This document shows, in pieces, positions 5,698 through 55,519 of a DNA stretch of 64,000 bases (the first letter of the stretch is position 1; every line of letters starts with the position of its first letter). The stretch covers positions 1 through 64,000 of the forward strand of contig VYBN01000032.1 in the NCBI GenBank assembly GCA_009844425.1, written 5' to 3'. A program made the translations under genes and the position numbers. The DNA is from Gammaproteobacteria bacterium. GTDB lineage: Bacteria; Pseudomonadota; Gammaproteobacteria; Steroidobacterales; Foliamicaceae. A model generated the notes under the pieces. That model was not told the origin of the DNA. It was given only the letters and a program-made list of their open reading frames with translations, and ran no database searches.

Positions 5698-6078
5698 ATG
5701 CCGCAAATGACCGACAGAATCATCATTCAGGACCTGCGCGTGAAAGCGATCGTCGGCGTCAACCGCTGGGAGAAAGCCGCGCCGCAGGTCGTGGGGGTGG
5801 ACCTTGAGATCGGAGTGGACGCGGCGAAAGCGGCCGAAGCCGACGAGATTGCCGCCACGGTCGATTACAAGCGCGTATCGCGCGAAATTGCGGCGCTGGC
5901 CGAAAGCCGCAGCTACGAACTGATCGAGACCCTGGCGGAGGCCATCGCGGCTCTGGTCCTTGGCGAGCACGGCGCGCAATGGGTGCGCGTGAAGGCGCGC
6001 AAGCCCTTCGCGCTGCGTAATGCCCGCGACGTGGGCGTGGTGATCGAACGCGGGAATCGAACGATCGGGGACGCGTGA
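5698..6078 (+). CDS. folB: Dihydroneopterin aldolase FolB
   Basis: 126 residues. Converts 7,8-dihydroneopterin to 6-hydroxymethyl-dihydropterin and glycolaldehyde in folate synthesis. It shows IIIQDLRVKAIVGVNRWEK at the start (conserved GVxxWE), the active-site region TVDYKRVS and the C-terminal VKARKPFALRNARDVGV with the conserved Lys. ATG at 5707 would give MTDRIIIQ and fits E. coli FolB slightly better, so the first three codons are uncertain. The stop overlaps the folK GTG start (GTGA), so the two are co-translated. Confidence 0.94.
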   Translation: MPQMTDRIIIQDLRVKAIVGVNRWEKAAPQVVGVDLEIGVDAAKAAEADEIAATVDYKRVSREIAALAESRSYELIETLAEAIAALVLGEHGAQWVRVKARKPFALRNARDVGVVIERGNRTIGDA

Positions 6079-6557
6079 ATCCGTCGGTCCGCGTATTCGT
6101 CAGCGCCGGCAGCAACATCGATCCGCGCGCGAACCTCGAAACCGCCTGCAGGGCGCTGAAGCGGCGCTACGGGCAGATTGAACTGTCGCCGCTGTACCAA
6201 AGCCCGGCCGAAGGCTTCACCGGCCCGGACTTTCTCAACCTGGTGGCGGGCTTCCGCACGGAGGATTCGCCCGGCGAAATACGCAAGCGGTTGGCTGAGA
6301 TTGAAGCCCGGGCGGGCCGCGACCGGTCAGGCGGAAAGTTTTCCTCGCGCACGCTGGACCTGGACCTGCTGCTGTACGGCGACCGCGTCGACGCTGCGCT
6401 GAAGCTGCCTCATCCCGACATCGAACGCTACGCCTTCGTCCTCAAGCCGCTCGCCGACCTCGCGCCCGACCTCCGCCATCCCGTCTCCGGCGCCACCATC
6501 GCCGAACTCTGGCGCTCCTTCACAGGTCAGAGCCAGGCGGCGATCGCCTCGCGTTGA
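6075..6557 (+). CDS. folK: 6-hydroxymethyl-7,8-dihydropterin pyrophosphokinase FolK
   Basis: 160 residues, full length. Transfers pyrophosphate from ATP to hydroxymethyl-dihydropterin. Signatures: FVSAGSNIDPRANLE at the N-terminus, FLNLVAGFRT, and SRTLDLDLLLYGD near 94-106 with the two Mg-binding Asp residues, followed by LPHPDIERYAFVLKPLADLAP. It starts with GTG overlapping the folB stop. Its last 31 nt overlap, tail to tail, the 3' end of the aldo/keto reductase gene on the other strand. Confidence 0.96.
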   Translation: MNPSVRVFVSAGSNIDPRANLETACRALKRRYGQIELSPLYQSPAEGFTGPDFLNLVAGFRTEDSPGEIRKRLAEIEARAGRDRSGGKFSSRTLDLDLLLYGDRVDAALKLPHPDIERYAFVLKPLADLAPDLRHPVSGATIAELWRSFTGQSQAAIASR

Positions 6558-7429
6558 TCGGCGTCCGGCAGCGGGCCGAGGCCGGCGCCGAGGTTGTCCA
6601 CCATGTGCTTGACCTTGGTCGTGGCCGGGATCACGCAGGTCACCGCCGGGTGCCCCAGGATCCACTTGAGGAACAACTGCCCCGGGCTGTCGCAGCCCAG
6701 TTCCGCGGCCACATCCGGTAGTTCCTTGTTGCCCACGCGGCGGAACAGGTCGCCGCGCACGAACGGCCGGTTCACCATGACCGCCATGCCCCGCTCCTGC
6801 GCCAGCGGCAGCAGCCGCTGTTCGGCTTCGCGCTCGCCCAGGCTGTAGTTGAGCTGAACGAAGTCCCAGTCGGCGGCCTGCATCACGCGTTCGAAGTCCG
6901 CGAACTGCCGCGGGTTCGAGGTCGTGATGCCGATGTAGCGGAAGGCGCCGTCGGCCTTCATCTCGCGCATGGTCTCGAGATGGACCTCCCAGTCCACCAG
7001 GTTGTGGACCTGCATCAGGTCGATCCGGTCCAGGCCCATCTTCTCCATCGATTCCCGCATCTGCCTGACGCCGGACTCGCGCCCCTCGGTCCAGACCTTG
7101 GTGGCGCAGAACATCGTTTCGTTGCCGGCCGCCAATGGAAGGAGTTCGCCCAGGTGGGTCTCGGAATTGCCGTACATCGGCGAAGTGTCGACCAGCGTGC
7201 CGCCGGCGAACAGCGCTTCCAGCACTTCGACGAGCGCGGCGCGCTGGTTTTCGCCGCTGACGCTGTTGAACACGCGCGACGTGCCCAGGCCCACGGGCGG
7301 CAGGGCCTCGCCGCTCGAGGGGATGTGGTGCATGCGGACGTCGGCGGCGCTTGCCGGCGGCAGGCTGAGCGCCAGTCCGGCCGCGCCTGCGCCTATGAGC
7401 GCTTCTCTGCGGGTAATTCTTCGAATCAT
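6527..7429 (-). CDS. Tat-exported aldo/keto reductase
   Basis: 300 residues. The N-terminus RRITRREALIGAGAAG followed by a hydrophobic stretch and ASA is a twin-arginine signal, so the mature enzyme should be periplasmic and folded with its cofactor before export. The AKR tetrad is visible: Asp and Tyr in DTSPMYGNSE, Lys in CATKVW, His in MQVHNL. The C-terminal NADPH-binding loop includes IPATTKVKHMVDN. Substrate unknown. Most AKRs are cytoplasmic; Tat-targeted members are a recognised minority. Its 3' end overlaps folK convergently. It is 24 nt downstream of cca. Confidence 0.88.
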   Translation of the reverse strand: MIRRITRREALIGAGAAGLALSLPPASAADVRMHHIPSSGEALPPVGLGTSRVFNSVSGENQRAALVEVLEALFAGGTLVDTSPMYGNSETHLGELLPLAAGNETMFCATKVWTEGRESGVRQMRESMEKMGLDRIDLMQVHNLVDWEVHLETMREMKADGAFRYIGITTSNPRQFADFERVMQAADWDFVQLNYSLGEREAEQRLLPLAQERGMAVMVNRPFVRGDLFRRVGNKELPDVAAELGCDSPGQLFLKWILGHPAVTCVIPATTKVKHMVDNLGAGLGPLPDADQREAIAAWL

Positions 7430-7453
7430 GGTTTTTCTTTCTCCTTCCCGGAT

Positions 7454-8665
7454 CTAGGTTTCGGCGATGGCGGCGATGCGGCGGCGGCGCAGCTCGTCGC
7501 CCAGGCGGGCGCCTTCGTAGCCTTCGTCGGCCAGGTCCGCGCCCGAAACGGTGCACGCCGCGGCAAAGGCGCGGCGGAAAACGTCGGCGGCGGGATAGGC
7601 GTCCTCGGTCATGCCCAGGCGGCCGCGGTAGTCCGCCTCGCAGGCCACCAGGAAATCCTCCAGCAGGCTGTCGGCCCGAAACGCGCCCAGCGATTCCAGC
7701 ACCTTGAGCTTCGTGTCGGGACGCAGTTCGTCGGCGCGGTGGCAGACGCCGTGGTAGCGCGCGACCTTTTCCGCCAGCGTCCGGAACCGCTTCGGCGCGC
7801 CCAGCCGCTCGCACATCTCGCCCACCAGGCGCACGCTGGCCGCCTCGTGCCCGCTGTGCCGCGGCCAGTACTGCTCGGGCGTGACCCCCTTGCCGAGATC
7901 GTGGGTCAGCGCCGCAAACCGCACTTCCACGCTGGGCGAAAAACGGGCCGCCTGCTCGAGCACCATCATCACGTGCACGCCGGTATCGATCTCCGGGTGC
8001 CAGCGTTTCGGCTGCGGCACCCCCCAAAGGCGGTCGATCTCCGGAAAGATCACCTTCAGGGCGCCGCATTCGCGCAATACCTCGAAGAAGCGCTGCGGCG
8101 CGTCCTCGCCCAATGCCCGCACCGTCTCCTGCCAGACGCGCTCCGGCACCAGCGCCGCCGCCTCGCCCCGCGCCACCATTTCGCCCATCAGCGCCATCGT
8201 CTCCGGGGCAATCGCAAAACCCAGGCCATCGAAGCGGGCCGCGAATCGGGCGACGCGCAGGATCCGCACCGGGTCTTCGCGAAATGCGGGCGAAACGTGC
8301 CGCAGCACTTTCTCCGCGAGGTCCCGCTCGCCGCCGTGGGGGTCCACAAGGCGCCCGGCGTCGTCCTCGGCCATCGCGTTGATGGTCAGGTCGCGCCGCA
8401 GCAGGTCTTCCTCCAGCGTGACCTCGGGGCCGAAATCGACCTCGAAACCCCGGTAGCCGGGAGCGGTCTTGGTTTCGCGCCGCGCCAGCGCGTATTCCTC
8501 CTGCGTATCCGGATGCAGGAAAACGGGAAACGAGCGCCCGATCTCCTTGTAACCCTGCTTGAGGAGTTCATCGGCGGTGGTTCCCACCACCACCCAGTCG
8601 CGCTCGCGCACCTCAAGGCCCAGGAGCCGGTCCCGAACCGCGCCCCCTACGAGATATGACTTCAT
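7454..8665 (-). CDS. cca: CCA-adding tRNA nucleotidyltransferase with HD domain
   Basis: 403 residues, the length of the gammaproteobacterial multifunctional enzyme. Adds or repairs the 3' CCA of tRNAs; the HD part gives phosphohydrolase activities in E. coli. Motifs: LVGGAVRDRLLG at the start, ERDWVVVGTT (catalytic DxD region, here E-R-D), RRDLTINAMA, DPVRILRVARFAARF, then LTHDLGKG with the HD pair near 255 and HHD-type residues in RYHGVCHRADEL. Hairpin J lies 22 nt upstream of the start, between this gene and htrA, both on the minus strand. Confidence 0.96.
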   Translation of the reverse strand: MKSYLVGGAVRDRLLGLEVRERDWVVVGTTADELLKQGYKEIGRSFPVFLHPDTQEEYALARRETKTAPGYRGFEVDFGPEVTLEEDLLRRDLTINAMAEDDAGRLVDPHGGERDLAEKVLRHVSPAFREDPVRILRVARFAARFDGLGFAIAPETMALMGEMVARGEAAALVPERVWQETVRALGEDAPQRFFEVLRECGALKVIFPEIDRLWGVPQPKRWHPEIDTGVHVMMVLEQAARFSPSVEVRFAALTHDLGKGVTPEQYWPRHSGHEAASVRLVGEMCERLGAPKRFRTLAEKVARYHGVCHRADELRPDTKLKVLESLGAFRADSLLEDFLVACEADYRGRLGMTEDAYPAADVFRRAFAAACTVSGADLADEGYEGARLGDELRRRRIAAIAET

Positions 8666-8686
8666 GCTGGGCTATGCGCTGCTAAA

Positions 8687-8798
8687 GGCCGCATCCGCCC
8701 CCGTCCTTCCGGAACCTTCCGAAGCCAGGGATGGCTGAGGAGAGCCCACAGGGATGTGCTTGCCGGCGTGTTCCGGAAGGACGGGTGCGGATGCGGCC
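8687..8798. repeat. Constant-loop hairpin J (28-bp stem)
   Basis: Arms 8687-8714 and 8771-8798 pair with a single mismatch around a 56-nt loop. The loop contains AGCC-AGGGAT-GGCT and CACA-GGGA-TGTG mini-hairpins and matches the reverse complement of the loop of element F (29.3 kb). Stems of J and F are not related in sequence. It lies between htrA and cca. Confidence 0.9.
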
Positions 8799-8808
8799 GC
8801 AGGGCCGC

Positions 8809-10281
8809 CTAGCCCCGCACCGTGATGACGACCCTGCGGTTGCCGCGGGCGAGATGGAGCACCAGAAGGGACCGGTTTTCGGCCGCCGCCTTCATCTGCT
8901 CCACGTTGCGCACGTCGGTGCGGTTGACCCGGAAGATCACGTCCTCGGCCTCAAGGCCGCTGTTCTCGGCGGCGCTGCCGGGCGCGATGGATTCCACCAG
9001 GATTCCCTGGTAGCCGTCCTCCTGGCCGTTGACCAGTGTGGCGCCGGCCAGGGCCGGATGGACCTCGTCGCCGCTGGAGGTCACCATGCCGCCCAGAACC
9101 ACCTCGACCAGCTTGAGCTGGCCGTCCTTGCCGACGATCTGCAGCGACACCTCTTCGCCCACGGAACGCAGGCCGACGGTATTGACCAGATCGCTGCTGC
9201 CCTCGATCTCCTTGTCGTTCACTCGGACGATCACGTCGCCCGGTTCGATTCCGGCTTCCTCCGCGGCCGAGTCCGGTATGACCTCGCTGACGAAGGCGCC
9301 GGCCGAGGACGCCAGGTCCAGCGCCTGGGCCACGTCCTCGCTCACGTCCTGCACGAACACGCCCAGTCGGCCGCGCCGGATTTCGCCGAATTCCACCAGC
9401 TGGCGCATGATCTCGCGCACGATGGAAGTCGGAATGGCAAAGCCGATGCCGATGTTGCCGCCGGAGCGCGACAGGATGTTGGAGGGGATGCCGACGAGTT
9501 CGCCGCGCATGTTCACCAGCGCGCCGCCGGAGTTGCCGGGATTGATCGACGCGTCGGTCTGGATGAAGTCCTCGATAGGGCTGGGCGCACCCGCCGCGCG
9601 GGCCCGCGGGATGGACCTGCCGACTGCGCTGACGATGCCGGAGGTCACGGTGTGGGTCAGGCCGAACGGATTGCCGATGGCCACCACGAAGTCGCCCACC
9701 TGCACCGCTTCGGAATCGCCCAGCGGCATCTCGGTCAGGTCGTCCGCCTGGTCCAGTTCAAGCACGGCCACGTCGGTGCCGGCGTCCGATCCCACCACCG
9801 AGGCGGCGATGGTCCGGCCGTCGCTCAGGGTCACTTCGATCTCGGACGCGTTCTGGATCACGTGATGATTGGTGAGCACCAGCCCGCGTCCGGCGTCCAC
9901 GATCACGCCGGAACCCGTGGGCTGCGGCTGCGGGTCCTGCTGTTGCTGCTGAGGCTGCTGCCGCCGGCGGGGGTTGCCGAAGAAACGCTCGAAGAAGGGG
10001 TCGCCCTGGAAGGGGCTGCGGAAACTCCTGGCCGGCCGGGCGATTGCGATGCTCACGACCGCCGGCGTGGTGGCCTGGACCAGCGGCGCCAGGCTGGGAA
10101 AGGGCTGTCCGTCCAGTTCCAGCGGCAACGAGGCCGGGGCCGTCCGTTCCTGGGCGTGCGAGGGCGTCGGCGCGCCGCCCGACAGCAATGCGCCCGCGCC
10201 GGCAAGGACCAGCGCCAGCGCCGATAGTCCGATCACAATCCTGCGTCTCATCTTCCTGTTCCGTATATCAGTAAATTGCAT
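8809..10281 (-). CDS. Periplasmic serine protease of the DegP/DegQ (HtrA) family
   Basis: 490 residues. Signal peptide over about 10-43 (MRRRIVIGLSALALVLAGAG, cleavage near SHA-QE). The trypsin-like domain has His140 (TNHHVI), Asp170 (AGTDVAVL) and Ser251 (NPGNSGGAL). Two PDZ domains follow (about 295-390 and 400-485). A Gln-rich linker lies at about 103-122, in the region of the LA loop. It degrades or refolds misfolded envelope proteins. The first ATG is used here, but ATG at residue 11 gives a more standard signal peptide. Hairpin K begins only 5 nt upstream of the first ATG, which favours the later start. MucD/DegQ is the closest assignment. Confidence 0.93.
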   Translation of the reverse strand: MQFTDIRNRKMRRRIVIGLSALALVLAGAGALLSGGAPTPSHAQERTAPASLPLELDGQPFPSLAPLVQATTPAVVSIAIARPARSFRSPFQGDPFFERFFGNPRRRQQPQQQQQDPQPQPTGSGVIVDAGRGLVLTNHHVIQNASEIEVTLSDGRTIAASVVGSDAGTDVAVLELDQADDLTEMPLGDSEAVQVGDFVVAIGNPFGLTHTVTSGIVSAVGRSIPRARAAGAPSPIEDFIQTDASINPGNSGGALVNMRGELVGIPSNILSRSGGNIGIGFAIPTSIVREIMRQLVEFGEIRRGRLGVFVQDVSEDVAQALDLASSAGAFVSEVIPDSAAEEAGIEPGDVIVRVNDKEIEGSSDLVNTVGLRSVGEEVSLQIVGKDGQLKLVEVVLGGMVTSSGDEVHPALAGATLVNGQEDGYQGILVESIAPGSAAENSGLEAEDVIFRVNRTDVRNVEQMKAAAENRSLLVLHLARGNRRVVITVRG

Positions 10282-46669: not shown

Positions 46670-48328
46670 TCAGGACGGGGTGCGGGCCGCCATTTCGCGG
46701 ATGGAATTCTCCCTGCGCATTCTGGCGACGCCCTCCTCGAACTCCCGTTTGGCCTGTCCGGCGTTGAGTTCGGTTTCCCTTGCCAGAAGTTGCGACATCA
46801 GGCCATGCTCCGGTCGTTCGCGGTAGCGCTCGACGAGTTTGACCGGACTGATTCCGGGCGTCGAGCGCGCCGTTTCGAAGAGTTCCGCGAGCAGGCCCAC
46901 CCGGGGTTCCTTCAGGTATTCAAATTCCGGCAGGGGATCGGCCTCCGCGGCCATTTCCGGAAAATTGAGCAGCAGACCGGTCAGGGATCCGGCCAGGTTG
47001 CCCCATGGATCGTTTCGCGGCATTCCGGGCGCCGGCCGGCGGACGGCGGCGCGGCGGCTCTGCGAGGTTTCAAGAAGCTGTCCCAGACGCTCGCGCGGAA
47101 GCTGCACCTCGTCGGCCAGACGGTTCATGAGCAGGTCCCGGTATACGCCGATGGGCGTGGAGCCGATCAGCGGCCGGGCCAGTTCGGCGATCCGCGCGCG
47201 TCCTTCCGCGGTGGCGAGGTCGCACTGCGCCGAAAGCGTCTGCATCAGAAACTCGGACATCGGCGTGGCGGAATCCAGCACCTGGTTGAACGACTCCGCC
47301 CCCTCGGAGCGCACGTAGCTGTCGGGGTCCTCGCCCTCTGGCAGGAAGGCGAAACTCAACTGGCGGCCGCCGCGCATCTCGGGCAGGGCCCGCTCCATCG
47401 CCCGCTCGGCCGCCCTGCGGCCGGCCGGGTCCCCGTCGAAGCAGAACACGACGCTGGGCGAAACCCGGAAAAGCAGCGTGAGCTGCTGAGGCGTGACCGC
47501 GGTTCCCAGCGTGGCCATTGCGCCGGGCACGTCGTGCTGGGCCAGCCCGATCACGTCCATGTAGCCTTCCACGAGCACGCAGCGGCCGACCTTGCGCCGG
47601 CCGAGTTCATGCAGTCCGTACAGCTCACGGCCCTTGTGGAACACCGGCGTCTCGGGGCTGTTCATGTATTTCGGCTGGACGTCGCCCATCGCCCGGCCGC
47701 CGAAGCCGGTAACGCGGCCGCGGCGGTCGCGGATCGGGAACATGATGCGGTCGCGGAAGCGATCGTAGAGTTCGCCGGAGTCGCCCTTGAGCGCCAGGCC
47801 GGCGTCGACGAGCCTGCGGCGGTCGTCGTCCGTCTGGCCGAACCGCGCCAGGATGCCGTTGCCCGCGGGCGCGTATCCGATCCCGAAGGCCTGCGCGATC
47901 TTGCCGGTCAGCCCTCGGCCCTTGAGGTAGTCCTTGGCCGGCGTGCTGGCCTTGAGTCCTTCGATGTAGTGCAGGGCCGCGCCGTTCAGCAGTTCATACA
48001 GGCCCTTGCCGGAGGGCCGGGACGGACCGCTGCGGGGCACTTCCAGGCCGTAGCGGTCGGCCAGCGCCTCGACCGCGGCGGGAAAGTCGAGCCGGTCGTG
48101 CTGCATCATGAAGCTGAGCGCGCTGCCGTGGGCGCCGCATCCGAAGCAGTGGAAGAAACCTTTTGTGGGGCTGACGGTGAACGACGGGGTCTTTTCGTTG
48201 TGGAACGGGCACAGTCCCTTGTACTCGCGGCCGGCGCGCTTCAGCTTGACGCGTTCGCCGATGATTTGCGTGATGTCGGCGCGATCGAGGAGATCGTCGA
48301 TGAACTCTCTCGGAATCGGCCCCGCCAT
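46670..48328 (-). CDS. dnaG: DNA primase DnaG
   Basis: 552 residues. CHC2-type zinc finger: CPFHNEKTPSF then GFFHCFGCGAHG (Cys and His ligands at about 38-65). TOPRIM domain with LVEGYMDVIGL and CFDGDPAGRRAAERAM. The C-terminal helicase-binding part is shorter than in E. coli. It makes RNA primers at replication forks. Start ATG at 48328 gives the conserved MAGPIPREFIDDLLDRADI; a longer frame reads through hairpin M. Its usual upstream neighbour rpsU is 7 kb away behind a restriction island. Confidence 0.96.
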   Translation of the reverse strand: MAGPIPREFIDDLLDRADITQIIGERVKLKRAGREYKGLCPFHNEKTPSFTVSPTKGFFHCFGCGAHGSALSFMMQHDRLDFPAAVEALADRYGLEVPRSGPSRPSGKGLYELLNGAALHYIEGLKASTPAKDYLKGRGLTGKIAQAFGIGYAPAGNGILARFGQTDDDRRRLVDAGLALKGDSGELYDRFRDRIMFPIRDRRGRVTGFGGRAMGDVQPKYMNSPETPVFHKGRELYGLHELGRRKVGRCVLVEGYMDVIGLAQHDVPGAMATLGTAVTPQQLTLLFRVSPSVVFCFDGDPAGRRAAERAMERALPEMRGGRQLSFAFLPEGEDPDSYVRSEGAESFNQVLDSATPMSEFLMQTLSAQCDLATAEGRARIAELARPLIGSTPIGVYRDLLMNRLADEVQLPRERLGQLLETSQSRRAAVRRPAPGMPRNDPWGNLAGSLTGLLLNFPEMAAEADPLPEFEYLKEPRVGLLAELFETARSTPGISPVKLVERYRERPEHGLMSQLLARETELNAGQAKREFEEGVARMRRENSIREMAARTPS

Positions 48329-48412
48329 AAACCCGAATATTGCACCATTCGCCGCGCACGCCCAAACGCGCGTTCGTCCTTCGTTGCAACTGCGCGTCCT
48401 TCGCGCGCTGTC

Positions 48413-48462
48413 GCGCCTTTCCCTCTGGAGCCACTTCGCGACGCTCCTGCCGGGAAAGGCGC
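48413..48462. repeat. Constant-loop hairpin M (short stem) upstream of dnaG
   Basis: GCGCCTTTCCC (48413-48423) pairs with GGGAAAGGCGC (48452-48462). The loop contains CCACTTCGCGACG, shared with O and P near 62-63.6 kb and close to N and Q. Further weak pairing continues outwards with an insertion on the left side. It lies at the junction between the dnaG leader and the restriction island. Confidence 0.75.
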
Positions 48463-48522
48463 AACACCGCGCTTTGGCCGGCGCGATATCCGGCATGTGT
48501 CGCCAAGTGAAGCGCGCTCCGT

Positions 48523-48533
48523 TATAGTATGAT
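48523..48533 (+). promoter_or_regulatory. Candidate -10 region for the antitoxin/restriction island
   Basis: TATAGT overlaps TATGAT in an AT-rich stretch 36-46 nt before the antitoxin ATG. No good -35 is visible. GAGG lies 9 nt before the ATG. Confidence 0.35.
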
Positions 48534-48568
48534 TTTACGACTTTCCAACATTAATAAGCGAGGTCACT

Positions 48569-48859
48569 ATGGCGCTTGTAACCGTGAAACCGAAATTCCA
48601 GGTAACTATCCCCGCCAAGCTTCGCAAAGACATTGACCTACGCGAGGGCGACATCATGGAAGCAACTCTTGTCAGCGATGGCATCTTGTTCAAGCCTAAA
48701 GACTTGGTGGACCGGGTAGCCGCCGCCGACCGCATTGCCGCAAAATTTGCCGAGGCTCAGCCAACGCATAGGGACCGCGGGCAGTCGGAGGGCGAAATTA
48801 TGCGCGACGCGATCGACGACATAGCTCGATCGCGTCGTGAACGCCACCGCGAGGCATGA
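48569..48859 (+). CDS. AbrB/MazE/SpoVT-type antitoxin
   Basis: 96 residues. The N-terminal swapped-hairpin DNA-binding domain is clear: VTVKPKFQVTIPAKLRKDI followed by LREGDIMEATLVSDGILFKP. The C-terminal half (about 47-96) is the toxin-binding tail, charged and helical. Such antitoxins repress their own operon and pair with a PIN-domain RNase. The next gene overlaps by ATGA as a toxin would, but only a short hydrophobic N-terminus there resembles a PIN domain, so the antitoxin appears to be an orphan. Confidence 0.88.
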   Translation: MALVTVKPKFQVTIPAKLRKDIDLREGDIMEATLVSDGILFKPKDLVDRVAAADRIAAKFAEAQPTHRDRGQSEGEIMRDAIDDIARSRRERHREA

Positions 48860-49110
48860 GAGCCGTAGAAGTGATTGTTGTCTCCGTAATGACGTGGCTG
48901 CGGCCCGAACCGAGCGTCGCCGCATTCCCCAATTCGAATGCCGCCAGTCCACGCGAGGCGTGGCCGCGCAAACGCCGAGGCCTTGAAGATAGAATCGCAG
49001 AGTTACGAAGCGCCGCCGGCAAGGAAAAGCAGATGTTGCGCCGAGTCGAACTGAACGAGGAACTTGCGCGACTGCGGGCCGATCGCGAGGCGGCGCGTGC
49101 GGGCCCATAG
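48856..49110 (+). pseudogene. Fused remnant: start of a toxin gene joined to a DUF4391-like tail
   Basis: 84 codons overlapping the antitoxin by 4 nt. The first ~15 residues (MRAVEVIVVSVMTWL) occupy the place and style of a PIN toxin start (MRAVxDTNVxVS), but no Asp motif follows. The last ~40 residues (LEDRIAELRSAAGKEKQMLR then RVELNEELARLRAD) resemble the C-terminal coiled coil of DUF4391 proteins. These I recall lying just before Mod genes in type III-like restriction operons. I infer a deletion that fused the two genes. It may or may not be translated. Confidence 0.45.
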
Positions 49111-49126
49111 GTTTGGAGAACTTGGT

Positions 49127-51076
49127 ATGGAGAAGATTGTCGCCAGCGACCGGGAGGCCCGCTCCGCGGATATCGTTACCGAAAACTTGGAACAACTAAA
49201 GGCCCTGTTTCCCCAAGCATTCACAGACGGCAAGGTAGATTTCCAGGTGCTCCGACAAATTCTCGGTGACGCCGTGGACGACAGTGAGGAAAAATACGGG
49301 CTCAACTGGCATGGTAAGCGCCGCGCGCGACAGCTCTCACTCACGCCGTCGACCGGAACCCTGCGCCCATGCCCTGAGGATAGTGTCGATTGGGAAACTA
49401 CACAGAACTTGATGATTGAAGGCGACAACCTGGAGGTGCTGAAGCTCCTCCAGAAGAGCTACGCTGGAAAGGTCAAGCTTATCTACATCGATCCTCCGTA
49501 CAACACGGGAAAGGACTTCGTTTATCGCGACGACTACCGTGACAACCTTCGAAACTATCTGGAACTAACCGGCCAAGTGGATGGTGACAACCGCAAATTG
49601 TCCTCAAACGCGGAATCGTCGGGGCGTTTTCACACCGACTGGCTGAACATGATGTATCCGAGACTTTTGCTGTCGAGGCATCTACTTAAGCCTGATGGCG
49701 TCCTTCTGATCTCGATTGATGATACCGAAGTGCACAATTTGCGTGCGGTTTGCGATGATGTTTTCGGAAGCGAAAATTTCTGTGGGACATTCGTCTGGGA
49801 AAAGAAGAAAAAGCCGTCGTTTCTTGACCGAAATATGGGCACCGTTACGGACTACATTGTCGCGTATGCAAAAAACCGCTCACTCGCCCCACCATTCGTC
49901 GCAGGTTCAGTCGAAGAGGGCAAAAAATACCCATTCAATAACGCGGGGAATCCCGAAAGCGTCCTCAGTTTTCCGCCGCGGTCCGTGAAGTTTTCCTGTC
50001 CAGATCAGCAAGTTACCGCACAGGATATGTCCCAAGGGAATATCGTTACAGAGCTGCTCGACGACGTGAGAATTGAGGCTGGATCAAACGTTGATGAGTT
50101 TCGGCTCCGAGGTGAGTGGCGCTATTCCCAGGCCAAACTGGACGAGTTCATTGCTAATGGCGCTGAAATCGTAATCAGCAAGGTTCCCTTCCGCCCGAAC
50201 TACATCAATCGTTCCGGCGAAATGAAGAAAACGTCCAATCTGCTGTCACATCGCGTGAATGGAATACCCACAAATGAGGATGCTACTCAAGAGATGAGAG
50301 TGCTTTTTGGAATGGACGTCATGAGTTACCCAAAACCCTCCGGCCTCGTCAAATATTTGGTTCGATCAATTTCCACTAACGATGACATAGTTCTAGATTT
50401 TTTTGCTGGTTCGGGCACGACGGCAAACGGAGTATTGCAACAGAATCTTGATGATGGATTGGCCCGTAGATACTTCTTGGTCCAGTTACCCGAAGTCCTG
50501 GATATCAATAGTAAGGAACAGCAACTGGCCGCGAGTTTCCTTAAATCTCAGGGACAGCCCAACAACATTGCCGAACTAACCAAGGAATACCTGCGTCGTA
50601 TAGGAAGTGATATTCGAGAAAAGAACCCCATGTTTGTGGGCGATGTCGGTTTTCGCGCTTTCAAACTGGATTCGACAAACATTCGCAAGTGGGAACCGGA
50701 ACCCGATAACCTGGAAGCCTCGCTGGAACTGTCCATCCAAAGCCTAAACCCCGATTGCAGTAAAGCTGGGGTTTTATTTGAGTTGCTGATTCGCCTGGGC
50801 CTGGATCTGTGCATATCCATTGATGATCGAATCGTTGCCGGGAAGAGTATCTACTCGGTCGGAGGTGGAATTCTTTTCGCTTGTCTCGACATGGCCATTA
50901 CCGTTTCTGATGCGGAACTCATTGGTCAAGAAATCATAGCTTGGCACGAGAGTCTTACTAAAGCGGGAGATGTTACCTGTGTCTTTCGAGACAACGCCTT
51001 TGTAGATGACGTTGCCAAGATTAACTTGACGACGTTCCTCCAAGAAGGCGGTATTTCTTCGATCAAGAGCATATGA
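49127..51076 (+). CDS. Type III-like DNA adenine methyltransferase (Mod subunit)
   Basis: 649 residues. Beta-class order: catalytic IYIDPPYNTGKDF (about 137-149) comes before the AdoMet motif LDFFAGSGTTANGV (about 423-436). The N-terminal DSEEKYGLNWHGKRRARQLS is a common Mod feature. DPPY predicts N6-adenine methylation. ATG at 49127 has GGAG upstream; longer frames run into the previous ORF. It overlaps the PLD nuclease gene by 4 nt. Codon use is markedly less GC-rich than dnaG and rpoD, a sign of horizontal transfer. Confidence 0.93.
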   Translation: MEKIVASDREARSADIVTENLEQLKALFPQAFTDGKVDFQVLRQILGDAVDDSEEKYGLNWHGKRRARQLSLTPSTGTLRPCPEDSVDWETTQNLMIEGDNLEVLKLLQKSYAGKVKLIYIDPPYNTGKDFVYRDDYRDNLRNYLELTGQVDGDNRKLSSNAESSGRFHTDWLNMMYPRLLLSRHLLKPDGVLLISIDDTEVHNLRAVCDDVFGSENFCGTFVWEKKKKPSFLDRNMGTVTDYIVAYAKNRSLAPPFVAGSVEEGKKYPFNNAGNPESVLSFPPRSVKFSCPDQQVTAQDMSQGNIVTELLDDVRIEAGSNVDEFRLRGEWRYSQAKLDEFIANGAEIVISKVPFRPNYINRSGEMKKTSNLLSHRVNGIPTNEDATQEMRVLFGMDVMSYPKPSGLVKYLVRSISTNDDIVLDFFAGSGTTANGVLQQNLDDGLARRYFLVQLPEVLDINSKEQQLAASFLKSQGQPNNIAELTKEYLRRIGSDIREKNPMFVGDVGFRAFKLDSTNIRKWEPEPDNLEASLELSIQSLNPDCSKAGVLFELLIRLGLDLCISIDDRIVAGKSIYSVGGGILFACLDMAITVSDAELIGQEIIAWHESLTKAGDVTCVFRDNAFVDDVAKINLTTFLQEGGISSIKSI

Positions 51077-52092
51077 CGGCCAAAGGCCAAAATCATCTGC
51101 CGACTTGGATATCGGGGAAATGGAGTATTGCGGCTTTCCGGGACTCTTTGATTTCCACTCTGCAGGCTGATCGTTCCGGCACAAAGCTATCCCTGTACTT
51201 CTATGCTGTCACTTCGTCTGGTTGGGGCCAGCTTCGCCAATCAATATTGTTATGGAAGAGTTGTGACGAGAAGCGCAAGGTCCGTCTATTTGTCGGTACA
51301 GATCACGGGATCACGGACCCTTCCGCACTTAGGCAGATCACCGAAGACGGCGTCGATGTACGCGTAATGCTCAATTACAACGGTATATTTCACCCGAAAG
51401 TCGTTTGGCTGCAGGGAAGCAAATGGCATGCCGTTTGGGCCGGAAGCAACAATCTGACCCGTGATGGCTTACTGAACAATGTTGAGTTTGCCTTGCTTGC
51501 ACGAACGCGGAAAACACCTTCAGCTCTGGGCCAATGGGCACGAGCAATCGAGACCGCGAGCACCAAACTTACACCGAGACTTCTGGATTCTTACGAATTC
51601 CAACGGCGCCGATTTGAGATAAAGCGAACTCGCGCCGGTGCAGCAACCTTTACTTGGAAACGAAGGGTACAGCCAAAAATAAAGAAGAAACCGACACCTC
51701 CGGTGGGAGATGGAAGCCTAATCATGGAAGTGATGCCGAAGGAAACTGGAGGCGAAGGAGGAAGGCAGCTTCAACTTCCAGTGCGGGCGGCCTCGGAATT
51801 TTTTGGTGTGCAAGGTGTTGGATCAAGCAACACAATACAACTCGGGGAGAAGGGTGGATCACTTTCACGACAGTTGACAATAACTGTATTCAAGAACAAT
51901 ACAGTGCGGATCGTTATCAGTAATTTGGAATATAGAGACCGCCCCTGCGTGCTGGTATTTGCGAAGACGGGAAATAAGCAGTTTGAGTACGAGATCGTTC
52001 CTGAGAGCATTTTCCCAAATCGATACAAGAGTCTGTTGGCACTCTGTACAAATCAGACCCGTCGTGGCAGCCGACGATGGGTCATTGCATGA
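51073..52092 (+). CDS. PLD-family nuclease embedded between mod and res
   Basis: 339 residues. One HKD-type motif is visible: FHPKVVWLQGSKWHAVWAGS then NNLTRDGL (H-x-K and G-S-x-N, about 97-125), as in PLD-fold nucleases such as BfiI and NgoFVII, which act as dimers. The C-terminal half (about 200-339) is beta-rich and could be a B3-like DNA-binding domain by analogy with those enzymes; I infer this from layout only. It overlaps mod and res by 4 nt at each end. Three-gene coupling makes it a true part of this system rather than a bystander. Confidence 0.82.
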   Translation: MTAKGQNHLPTWISGKWSIAAFRDSLISTLQADRSGTKLSLYFYAVTSSGWGQLRQSILLWKSCDEKRKVRLFVGTDHGITDPSALRQITEDGVDVRVMLNYNGIFHPKVVWLQGSKWHAVWAGSNNLTRDGLLNNVEFALLARTRKTPSALGQWARAIETASTKLTPRLLDSYEFQRRRFEIKRTRAGAATFTWKRRVQPKIKKKPTPPVGDGSLIMEVMPKETGGEGGRQLQLPVRAASEFFGVQGVGSSNTIQLGEKGGSLSRQLTITVFKNNTVRIVISNLEYRDRPCVLVFAKTGNKQFEYEIVPESIFPNRYKSLLALCTNQTRRGSRRWVIA

Positions 52093-55070
52093 AGCTCAAG
52101 TTTGAACCGAATCTTGACTTTCAACTTCAAGCGGTGAATGCTGCTTGCGATCTTTTCCGAGGCCAAGAAGTCTGCCGGACGGAATTCACGGTCACCCGAA
52201 ACGAGGCGAACTCTCAGTCATGGCTGAGTTTCGCCGAAAATGATTTCGGCGTTGGCAATCGGCTTGCCCTGCTCGACGAAAAAATCCAAAAGAACCTGAA
52301 CGACATCCAGCTTCGCAACGGATTGCCGCCGTCTCGTTTCCTCGACTCCGGAGACTTCACCGTTGAAATGGAAACCGGTACCGGTAAGACGTACGTATAT
52401 CTACGCACGATCTTCGAACTGAACAAGCGCTACGGCTTCACTAAATTCGTTGTCGTGGTTCCTTCGATCGCGATCAAGGAGGGCGTCTATAAGTCACTTC
52501 AGATCACCGAGGATCATTTTCGAACGCTGTATTCGGGCACTCCATTCGAGTATTTCCTTTACGATTCCGCGAAGCTCGGACGGGTTCGGAACTTCGCCAC
52601 CAGCCCCCATATCCAGATCATGGTGGTTACGGTTGGAGCCATCAACAAAAAGGACGTCAACAACCTCTACAAAGACAGCGAGAAGACGGGTGGCGAGAAG
52701 CCAATCGACCTGATCAAGGTCACCCGGCCGATCATAATGGTCGACGAGCCGCAAAGCGTGGACGGCGGTCTGGCCGGGCGCGGTAAGGAAGCCCTAGGTG
52801 CGATGAACCCGCTGTGCACTCTTCGCTATTCGGCCACGCATGTGGAGAAGCACCACATGGTTTATCGACTCGACGCCGTCGATGCATACGAACGCAAGCT
52901 GGTGAAGCAGATCGAGGTTGCGTCCGCCACCATCGAGGACGCCCACAACCGACCCTATGTCCGCCTGATCTCTACGGGCAACACACGCGGCATTATCAGC
53001 GCCCGGGTCGAAATGGATGTCGAATTTGCCGGTCGCGTGCGGCGTGTCGAGAGGTTGGTACAGGACGGCGACGATCTTGAACAGGCGACTGGCCGCGCGG
53101 TTTATCGGGATTGCCGTATTGGTGAGATACGCGTCGAGAAGAAAAACGCATTCATCGAAATTCGGGTGCCCGGCGGGGAGCATTTCTTGCGGGAAGGCGA
53201 AGCTTGGGGCGATGTAGACGCGGCGGCCGTTCACCGGCAAATGATCCGCCGGACCATTCGCGAGCATCTCGACAAGGAGAAGCGCTTGCGACCGCAAGGT
53301 ATCAAGGTCCTCAGCCTATTCTTCGTTGACACCGTGGAACGATATCGCCGCTACGACGAATCGGGCAATCCGGTGAAGGGCGAATACGCTCGCATGTTTG
53401 AGGAGGAATATCGACGCCTCGCACGCCATCCCGATTACTTGTCGCTATTTAAGGAGGTGGACCTTGTCACGGACGCCGGGAAGGTCCACGACGGCTACTT
53501 CTCCATCGATAGGAAAGGCGGATGGGTTGATACCGCCGAAAACAACCAATCCAATCGTGACAATGCCGAGCGCGCCTACAACCTAATCATGAAGGAGAAG
53601 GAGAAACTGCTGAGCTTGGACGAACCTTTGAAGTTCATATTCTCGCATTCTGCCCTGCGCGAAGGGTGGGACAATCCCAATGTGTTTCAGATCTGCGCAT
53701 TGCGCGATATTCAGACCGAGCGTGAGCGCCGCCAGACGATCGGGCGCGGATTGCGTCTATGCGTGAACCAGGACGGTGAGCGCTTGCGCGGTTTCGAAGT
53801 GAATACGCTCACGGTGGTTGCGCGCGAGAGTTACGAGGAGTTTGCCGAGAATCTCCAACATGAGATCGAGAAGGATACTGGTATGCGCTTCGGCGTCATC
53901 GAGCCTCACCAGTTCGCGCAGATTCCGGTGATTGGTAACGACGGGAAAGCGGCAGTCTACGGATTCGACAAGTCGCAGGCTCTGTACGGCCATCTTCGGA
54001 CGGCAGGCCACATCGACGCAAAGGGGTGCATACAGGATTCACTTCGCCACGCGCTCAAGCACGATAGCCTTGTCATACCCGATGAATTTGCTGCCCAACG
54101 GGCTGCCATCACTTCTGTCCTGCACAAGCTTGCTGGGCGCCTAAAGGTCAAGAACGCCGACGACCGCCAGACCGTCCGGCCGCGTCAAGCCGTGCTCGAT
54201 AGCAGCGAGTTCAAAGAGTTGTGGGACCGCATCAAGCACAAGACTACCTACCGCGTGACTTTCGATAATGAGACCCTGCTGCAAAAGTGTGCCAGGGCGT
54301 TGAGGGCCTCGCCAGCGATTCCCAGGACCCGTCTGCAATGGCGCAAGGCTGACATCGCCATCGGTCAGGCTGGGGTCGAGGCGGCCGAGATCGCCGGGTC
54401 GGCGACTGTGGTTCTTGAAGAAGCCGAAACCGAGTTGCCCGATCTGCTGACCGAGCTTCAGGATCGTACACAACTCACGCGTCGAAGTATTTTTCGCATT
54501 CTTACCGGAAGTCGGCGACTTGGCGACTTCAAGCGAAACCCGCAACAGTTCATCGAGCTTGCCGCGCAGGCCATTAATGGCTGCAAGCAGCGGGCGCTGG
54601 TGGACGGCATCAGGTACCGGCGCCTAGGCGATGATGCCTACTATGCGCTGGAGCTATTCAAGCAGGAAGAACTCACCGGTTATTTGAGGAACATGCTCGA
54701 TGCGGAGAAGTCAGTCCACGCGAAGGTGATCTTCGAATCCGAGACCGAGCGGCGGTTCGCGGATCAACTTGAGAAGAACGCGGCTGTGAAGGTATACACC
54801 AAGCTTCCCGGCTGGTTCAAGGTGTCGACACCGCTTGGAAGTTACAACCCGGACTGGGCAGTTCTGATCGATTCTGACGTGGGGGAACGCCTCTACTTTG
54901 TCGTCGAAACGAAAGGGAGCACTTTGCTCGGCGATCTCCGCCCTATCGAGGCCGCGAAGATCGAATGCGGCAAGAAGCACTTCAAGGCGCTCGAGGTTCG
55001 CGAAGATGCCGCCCGGTACGAAGTTGTCGCCACTGTCGACGAATTGTTTGCACAGACCGTCACAGCCTGA
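52089..55070 (+). CDS. Type III-like restriction subunit Res (SF2 helicase plus nuclease)
   Basis: 993 residues. Walker A in METGTGKTYVYLRTI (about 96-110), DEAD-box equivalent IIMVDEPQSVDGG, SATH, then helicase motif VI QTIGRGLRLCVN. The C-terminal nuclease has YNPDWAVLID and YFVVETKGS (D-x-ExK). Translocates on DNA and cuts with the Mod subunit. ATG at 52089 overlaps the PLD gene stop (ATGA). Length is normal and no frameshift is seen, so the system looks functional. Less GC-rich than backbone genes. Confidence 0.93.
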   Translation: MKLKFEPNLDFQLQAVNAACDLFRGQEVCRTEFTVTRNEANSQSWLSFAENDFGVGNRLALLDEKIQKNLNDIQLRNGLPPSRFLDSGDFTVEMETGTGKTYVYLRTIFELNKRYGFTKFVVVVPSIAIKEGVYKSLQITEDHFRTLYSGTPFEYFLYDSAKLGRVRNFATSPHIQIMVVTVGAINKKDVNNLYKDSEKTGGEKPIDLIKVTRPIIMVDEPQSVDGGLAGRGKEALGAMNPLCTLRYSATHVEKHHMVYRLDAVDAYERKLVKQIEVASATIEDAHNRPYVRLISTGNTRGIISARVEMDVEFAGRVRRVERLVQDGDDLEQATGRAVYRDCRIGEIRVEKKNAFIEIRVPGGEHFLREGEAWGDVDAAAVHRQMIRRTIREHLDKEKRLRPQGIKVLSLFFVDTVERYRRYDESGNPVKGEYARMFEEEYRRLARHPDYLSLFKEVDLVTDAGKVHDGYFSIDRKGGWVDTAENNQSNRDNAERAYNLIMKEKEKLLSLDEPLKFIFSHSALREGWDNPNVFQICALRDIQTERERRQTIGRGLRLCVNQDGERLRGFEVNTLTVVARESYEEFAENLQHEIEKDTGMRFGVIEPHQFAQIPVIGNDGKAAVYGFDKSQALYGHLRTAGHIDAKGCIQDSLRHALKHDSLVIPDEFAAQRAAITSVLHKLAGRLKVKNADDRQTVRPRQAVLDSSEFKELWDRIKHKTTYRVTFDNETLLQKCARALRASPAIPRTRLQWRKADIAIGQAGVEAAEIAGSATVVLEEAETELPDLLTELQDRTQLTRRSIFRILTGSRRLGDFKRNPQQFIELAAQAINGCKQRALVDGIRYRRLGDDAYYALELFKQEELTGYLRNMLDAEKSVHAKVIFESETERRFADQLEKNAAVKVYTKLPGWFKVSTPLGSYNPDWAVLIDSDVGERLYFVVETKGSTLLGDLRPIEAAKIECGKKHFKALEVREDAARYEVVATVDELFAQTVTA

Positions 55071-55205
55071 TTCGGGTCAGGTCCAACCTGCGCAACTGGT
55101 CTCGAAACCAGCTTTGGTCGTCCCCGCCACCGGGCAAATCCTCGACTGTCGAGGTGTCAGTGACCGTTCCCCTGGATCCGACCCACTCTGGATGTGGGGG
55201 AGGGG

Positions 55206-55421
55206 TTAGTAGAGGCGGCGGCGGCGGTTCTGTTCGCGGCTGGTGCGCTTGGCCTGGCGCTTGACGGCGGCGGCCTTCTGGCGCTTGCGAACCTGGGTCG
55301 GCTTCTCGTAGAACTCGCGGCGGCGCACCTCGGCCAGGATGCCGGCCTTCTCGCAGGCGCGCTTGAAGCGGCGCAAGGCCGCATCAAAGACTTCGTTTTC
55401 CTTTACCCGTACGCTAGGCAA
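55206..55421 (-). CDS. rpsU: 30S ribosomal protein bS21
   Basis: 71 residues from a TTG start: [20 protein letters not shown] is the bS21 N-terminus (after processing) and the tail is Arg/Lys-rich, ending RRRRLY. GAGGAC lies at a suitable distance upstream. In most gammaproteobacteria dnaG and rpoD follow directly on the same strand. Here they follow in the same order and orientation but only after a 6.5-kb plus-strand restriction island. Confidence 0.95.
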
Positions 55422-55519
55422 GTTGCTGTCCTCGTCGCAAGGAGCGCGGATTTTAGCGATTGCCCGCCCCCATTGCAATTGCCTGTTGTATTGTTTGCCG
55501 CCTTGCGGAACCATTTTCG

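Follow-up and report, generated by a model that had tools for sequence, protein, structure and literature searches.

A type III restriction-modification operon with an embedded gene for a BfiI-like PLD-B3 protein

Three intact genes at one locus

The stretch of DNA analysed here (the window) comprises the first 64,000 nucleotides of contig VYBN01000032.1, from a gammaproteobacterium of the Foliamicaceae (assembly GCA_009844425.1). Three adjoining genes on its forward strand form a Type III restriction-modification (R-M) operon with an extra gene in its middle. The first gene, mod (49127..51076, 649 amino acids), encodes a predicted beta-class N6-adenine Type III DNA methyltransferase; the second (51073..52092, 339 amino acids) encodes a PLD-fold protein with a B3-like domain, resembling the restriction enzyme BfiI; and the third, res (52089..55070, 993 amino acids), encodes a Type III restriction subunit with a superfamily 2 (SF2) helicase. 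All three open reading frames are intact, and each gene overlaps the next by ATGA, with the mod/PLD junction reading AGCATATGACGG (overlap at 51073-51076) and the PLD/res junction reading ATTGCATGAAGC (overlap at 52089-52092). An earlier note, made from the letters of the sequence, had described a Type III-like operon in which a PLD nuclease gene is embedded and is joined to mod and res by two such overlaps, and the reading frames and both junctions bear out this description of an apparently intact operon. The further idea that the nuclease is made in step with its neighbours, by translational coupling, is plausible from the overlaps.

Judged from their sequences, Mod and Res are genuine subunits of a Type III enzyme. 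Mod matches the PADLOC model MTase_III (1e-199) and Pfam N6_N4_Mtase (1.5e-29), and its relatives in the PDB include EcoP15I and other Mod proteins. Its motif order, with DPPY at residue 122 and then FAGSG at 426, is that of the beta-class N6 type with a central target-recognition domain (TRD), as in Type III Mods. The TRD covers residues 223-376 (49793..50254, forward strand), with boundaries set by comparison with other Mods. Res matches PADLOC REase_III (E 0) and Pfam ResIII, is a homologue of EcoP15I Res, and shows the motifs of a Type III Res: GTGKT at 97, DEPQ at 219, QTIGRGLR at 549, and NPDW...VETK within a C-terminal PD-ExK domain (residues 873-980, 54705..55028, forward strand; Pfam RE_endonuc, 5.1e-35). 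Res therefore carries its own nuclease, as the earlier note had said in naming a D-ExK nuclease. Catalytic motifs are complete in Mod, the PLD protein and Res.

Anatomy of the PLD protein

The middle protein contains a PLD-like domain (Pfam PLDc_2, 1.4e-6), and a profile built from four relatives matched the solved structures of SauUSI (1.4e-6) and BfiI (1.4e-4). The catalytic set H107-x-K109 ... N127 ... E138 (51391..51486, forward strand) aligns with that of BfiI and is kept in all five relatives examined; the earlier note had named the lack of an H-x-K-x-N pattern in an alignment as something that would refute its proposal. An AlphaFold2 model of the 339-residue protein, another check named there, was built from four sequences and has a mean pLDDT of 64, with about 75 in the B3 part. 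When the whole model was searched with Foldseek, BfiI (2c1l) was the top match (E 1.5e-7, probability 1.00), although the two domains are oriented differently in BfiI and in the model, giving a root mean square deviation of 20 A over the whole chain. The C-terminal part of the model (residues 212-339, 51706..52089, forward strand) superimposes on the B3 domain of BfiI with its cognate DNA over 125 residues at 2.8 A (Z 12.8, VIA-align), and it also matches LlaJI.R1 (Z 12.0), the UbaLAI B3 domain (9.9) and EcoRII-N (8.7). The B3-like DNA-binding tail, which had been put forward as a possibility, is thus present in the model at about residues 212-339.

The protein therefore has a single PLD domain with the H-x-K, N and E residues of BfiI, followed by a C-terminal B3 domain, and by this anatomy it is a BfiI-type PLD-B3 restriction nuclease, with a presumed activity to match. 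The same anatomy favours a sequence-specific, BfiI-like nuclease rather than a non-specific effector. The B3 domain and the neighbouring methylase genes make a generic phospholipase unlikely. A PLD protein of N. gonorrhoeae was considered as a possible R.NgoAVII, but it turned out to be another PLD protein lying within nuo genes and was not used.

More distant relatives of the PLD protein also lie next to methylase genes. Those in L015 and L022-L024 are directly behind Eco57I-like methylases, that in L016 is directly behind an MmeI-like methylase, and those in L033 and L078 are beside other methylases. A PLD-B3 gene from Sinorhizobium (L014, 5743-10918) likewise follows an Eco57I-like methylase, which is there contained in two overlapping open reading frames (5743-8538 and 8381-9814). 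These neighbourhoods fit a role for the distant relatives as the restriction half of R-M pairs. The split Sinorhizobium methylase may reflect a frameshift, and a TIR-TPR gene comes after the PLD-B3 gene at that locus.

The same TRD beside a related PLD protein in Pirellula

When the PLD family alone was used for a scan, a single full-length close relative of the PLD protein came up, with 45-47% identity, in a metagenome-assembled genome of Pirellula. The gene order there is SNF2-like helicase, PLD, Mod, Res, with the helicase gene directly upstream of the PLD gene across a gap of 18 bp. The two Type III backbones are different: the PADLOC models matched are PDLC03636 for the Pirellula Mod versus PDLC03634 for the window Mod, and PDLC03648 versus PDLC03647 for the Res proteins. 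Outside the TRD, identity between the two systems is about 40% in the conserved N-terminal part of Mod and about 25% in Res, whereas the window TRD is 63% identical to the Pirellula Mod. Within the PLD protein, the B3 domain is better conserved (54%) than the PLD domain (43%), as would be expected if specificity is kept.

Among other Mods of these backbones, a related TRD was present in 0 of 8 complete planctomycete ones and in 1 of 15 from gammaproteobacteria. The one positive, G153, matches at 45% and 53% over two contig ends that were taken as one gene, and the slot at its locus holds an AlbA_2 gene, not a PLD gene. This gives a background of about 1 in 23; because the window itself defines the TRD, there is one independent observation only, and the chance of a TRD match at the Pirellula locus is roughly 1 in 23 by that background. 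A single recombination tract does not explain the likeness, because the gene order differs (mod-PLD-res in the window, PLD-mod-res in Pirellula). Arrival of the PLD gene simply as a companion of its Mod backbone was also rejected, since other cargo is present in the nearest of the sampled backbones whose slot can be read (see below) and the Pirellula backbone is a different one. TRDs set the target of Mod and are swapped between mod genes (PMC3311624, PMC3874151), and the simplest reading is therefore that the PLD-B3 nuclease and the TRD are a matched pair. By sequence comparison the nuclease seems to follow the TRD from one backbone to another; the association across backbones is suggestive and no proof, being drawn from two loci.

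Orphan Mods with the window TRD (57-58% identity) were also seen on two viral contigs (L026, 6659-7816; L079, 6611-7837), where they perhaps shield the phage from restriction of this specificity.

A pattern scan of a species-genome collection, which depends on short conserved stretches and returned 4 relatives in all, showed no second case of the exact mod-PLD-res order. Nor was this order found in 368 other gammaproteobacterial genomes, about 397 other genomes of the phylum, 293 genomes of the Pirellula phylum, or the plasmids, phages, viral contigs and E. coli DNA searched; all these searches are samples. The earlier note had looked to recurrence of this order as a test of its proposal, and the outcome is divided. 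The lack of another instance weighs against a conserved three-gene system, whereas the pairing of the same PLD protein with a same-TRD Mod and with a Res in Pirellula, albeit in another order, supports a functional link. The literature search, which covered sources other than subscription papers and REBASE, found no description of a PLD gene inside a Type III operon, of genes between mod and res, or of DUF4391 (see below).

A cargo slot between mod and res

A Res search of 274 gammaproteobacterial genomes yielded 16 genomes with relatives, including that of the window. At least one gene lies between mod and res in 11 of the 16 related loci with readable mod-res spacing, and the statement in the earlier note that classical Type III systems have only Mod and Res consequently fails for this clade. 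The cargo is varied: Fic in L061, RhuM in L065 and L069, and RhuM plus Fic in L076; a RecG-like HATPase, with or without AlbA_2, in L066, L071 and L077; HAD in L074; and a gene of unknown type in L073. An AAA_21 gene is followed by DUF4276 in L064 and by a similar second open reading frame in L062, and these pairs (L062, 872-2769; L064, 3894-5839) are possible two-gene effector cargo. In the sampled backbones that are nearest to the window's and whose slot is readable (Res 71-73% identical), the genes at this position are Fic or AAA plus DUF4276.

Similar arrangements are known from other R-M systems. PrrC is encoded within the Type I locus EcoprrI and fires once the enzyme is inhibited (PMC12707154), and RhuM and Fic/Doc genes have been described in R-M operons or their neighbourhoods (PMC3710099). 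Embedding and overlap are therefore ordinary, but a PLD protein is unusual as cargo. Defence-type genes of several sorts occupy the space between mod and res in this clade, which makes it a place to seek new effectors.

Planctomycete relatives of the Pirellula system have a second cargo slot, between the SNF2-like helicase and mod. Judged from protein starts only, this slot holds an OLD-like ATPase plus a UvrD-like gene, a Gabija-like combination, in L091 (3352-6040) and a SIR2-like plus HerA-like pair in L092 (1825-6328).

Genomic setting and history of the island

The operon lies within an island at 48.5-55.2 kb (48473-55206), between rpsU (55206-55514, reverse strand) and dnaG (46670-48496, reverse strand). 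The G+C content of mod, the PLD gene and res is 47-57%, as against 65% for the window. In two genomes of the same genus (G003 and G005) rpsU and dnaG are about 36 bp apart, and in a third (G007) an AbrB gene and a PIN-like toxin gene lie between them. The island interrupts the macromolecular-synthesis gene cluster, splitting rpsU from dnaG and rpoD.

To the left of the operon is an orphan AbrB/MazE-type antitoxin gene (48569..48859, forward strand; Pfam MazE_antitoxin 3.7e-8, TIGR01439 8e-12). It has no toxin gene beside it, whereas the AbrB gene in the same-genus locus L088 precedes a PIN-like toxin gene. Next comes a probable remnant of a DUF4391 gene (48856..49110, forward strand), which matches the C-terminal 38 positions of the Pfam family with an E value of 9e-6 that is below the curated cut-off, and which is 42% identical over 57 amino acids (E 1e-8) to the intact DUF4391 of L064. 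In L063, L064 and L069 the DUF4391 gene stands intact, with a helicase gene on one side and mod on the other. From this comparison the window operon looks like a 5'-shortened version of a helicase-DUF4391-mod-cargo-res operon, the lost helicase being deduced from the relatives.

Two nucleases under one methylase?

The locus is a real, well-formed variant of the Type III R-M system with a rare BfiI-type cargo nuclease. The explanation we prefer is that a Type III operon acquired this PLD-B3 nuclease, that the B3 domain and the TRD read one DNA word, and that one methylase protects against two nucleases; we give this an even chance of being right. The more specific proposal is that the Type III methylase and the BfiI-like protein share one target, that the mark set through one TRD licenses two nucleases of different mechanism, and that TRD and B3 domain pass jointly from one Type III backbone to another as a matched specificity pair; it is more tentative, falling a little short of an even chance.

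If the target is shared, as the two loci suggest, the B3 domain would recognize the same word as the Mod TRD, and a single methylase would guard the host from both the Mod-Res complex and the PLD-B3 dimer. The first of these, which is ATP-dependent, would cut on the head-to-head encounter of two unmethylated sites, and the second would act where it is bound to an unmethylated site. In BfiI, NgoAVII and CglI it is the B3 domain that recognizes the target (PMC4267653). Type III Mods methylate one strand, and Type III enzymes spare replicated self DNA by needing two head-to-head unmethylated sites (PMC3874151). Because Mod marks one strand of an asymmetric site, a free PLD-B3 enzyme would cut the unmethylated daughter after each round of replication, and so its cutting is probably gated, a step with less support than the shared target. 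Two bound sites might be needed, or Res might act as a motor in the manner of the CglI H subunit. BfiI gets round this difficulty with its two methylases, and CglI and NgoAVII gate their PLD-B3 subunit by an ATPase (PMC4267653, PMC5737866). The host would gain a further cut, of different chemistry, at these same sites, available if phage proteins block Res or if the sites are not head-to-head.

Several points weigh against a shared target. A full-length PLD protein occurs with this TRD in two loci only, and the same TRD is found without any PLD gene in a Type III locus on an E. faecium plasmid (55-57%) and in the two phage orphan Mods (57-58%), so that the TRD does not need the PLD protein. 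BfiI needs two methylases, one for each strand (PMC4267653), and the window locus has one. The AlphaFold model of the PLD-B3 protein is of only moderate quality, given its pLDDT and the four sequences behind it.

One might instead suppose that the PLD-B3 protein is independent cargo or a guard effector, which occupies an accessory slot and either has its own target or fires, like PrrC, when the Type III enzyme is blocked, without sharing the target of Mod. Unrelated genes fill the slot in 11 of the 16 related loci, including Fic or AAA plus DUF4276 in the closest readable backbones; PrrC, RhuM and Fic/Doc provide precedents (PMC12707154, PMC3710099); and the PLD gene sits inside the operon, as a PrrC-like effector would. 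Independent cargo leaves unaccounted for both the TRD common to two different backbones and the presence of a restriction-enzyme-type, sequence-reading B3 domain, and we regard this explanation as unlikely, though one to be taken seriously.

A CglI-like complex, in which the PLD-B3 protein is a nuclease subunit unable to cut alone and driven by Res (or by the SNF2-like helicase in Pirellula) as motor, would agree with the Pirellula helicase gene lying directly upstream of the PLD gene and with the gating that one-strand methylation calls for. Res, however, has its own nuclease and belongs to the Type III family rather than to the Z1-domain H-subunit family, and the window locus has no remaining SNF2 gene; such a complex is improbable. 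Slightly less probable again is a decaying locus, in which the helicase and DUF4391 genes have been lost and the remaining genes make no working system. The DUF4391 remnant before mod and the helicase-DUF4391-mod order of L063, L064 and L069 are what decay would leave to be seen, but none of mod, the PLD gene and res is truncated or lacks a catalytic motif, and in several of the sampled Type III relatives no helicase adjoins mod and res.

If the preferred explanation of one methylase and two nucleases is true, the methylation mark of this Type III system also covers a second cutter of Type II-like character, and the gap that the head-to-head rule leaves in Type III restriction is closed. The old question of how a nuclease copes with one-strand methylation of an asymmetric site would then be open to experiment, and the TRD and B3 domain would be a natural matched pair of unrelated folds for one DNA word, useful for studies of specificity.

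Comparison with known systems

The operon shares with the classical Type III systems EcoP15I and EcoPI a Mod with DPPY and FxGxG motifs and an exchangeable TRD, a Res with an SF2 helicase and a C-terminal PD-ExK domain, and adjacency of the two genes. It differs from them in the PLD-B3 gene between mod and res and in the DUF4391 remnant upstream. Enzymes of the Type III kind cleave, with ATP, 25-27 bp from one of two unmethylated asymmetric sites in head-to-head orientation. The Type IIS enzyme BfiI resembles the window PLD protein in its N-terminal PLD domain with H-x-K, N and E, its C-terminal B3 domain, its length (358 amino acids versus 339) and its adjoining methylase gene. However, identity in structural alignments is about 12-15%, and BfiI is accompanied by two methylases but by no Type III partner. 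Enzymes of the BfiI type cut site-specifically without metal or ATP, as a dimer that has one active site.

The CglI/NgoAVII systems, composed of a methylase (M), a PLD-B3 nuclease (R) and an ATPase (H/N), are likewise three-gene loci with a methylase, a PLD-B3 nuclease and an SF2 ATPase. The window protein has the same two domains as their PLD-B3 subunit; R.NgoAVII was absent among the listed structural matches. In the window, unlike in these systems, the methylase is an N6-adenine Type III Mod rather than a C5 enzyme, the ATPase is a Type III Res (ResIII plus RE_endonuc) with no Z1 match rather than a nuclease-free DEAD-family ATPase with Z1 and C-terminal domains, and the flanks are rpsU, dnaG and rpoD. 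Membership in this group is ruled out by the methylase class and by the lack of a Z1 ATPase. The Type IV enzyme SauUSI has a related PLD domain (profile E 1.4e-6, Z 10.1), but it is a single PLD-helicase fusion that reads modified cytosine, whereas the window PLD protein is encoded by a separate gene and has a B3 domain and a methylase partner. DISARM was rejected, because the DrmC model matches the PLD protein only at E 1e-4 and the space from rpsU to dnaG holds no drmA- or drmB-like reading frame.

PrrC in EcoprrI and other R-M cargo are like the window gene in being extra effector genes inside an R-M operon. The window cargo differs in being a restriction-enzyme-type DNA nuclease that is apparently matched to the TRD. 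Cargo in R-M loci was already known, and the new point is the association of a PLD-B3 protein with one TRD.
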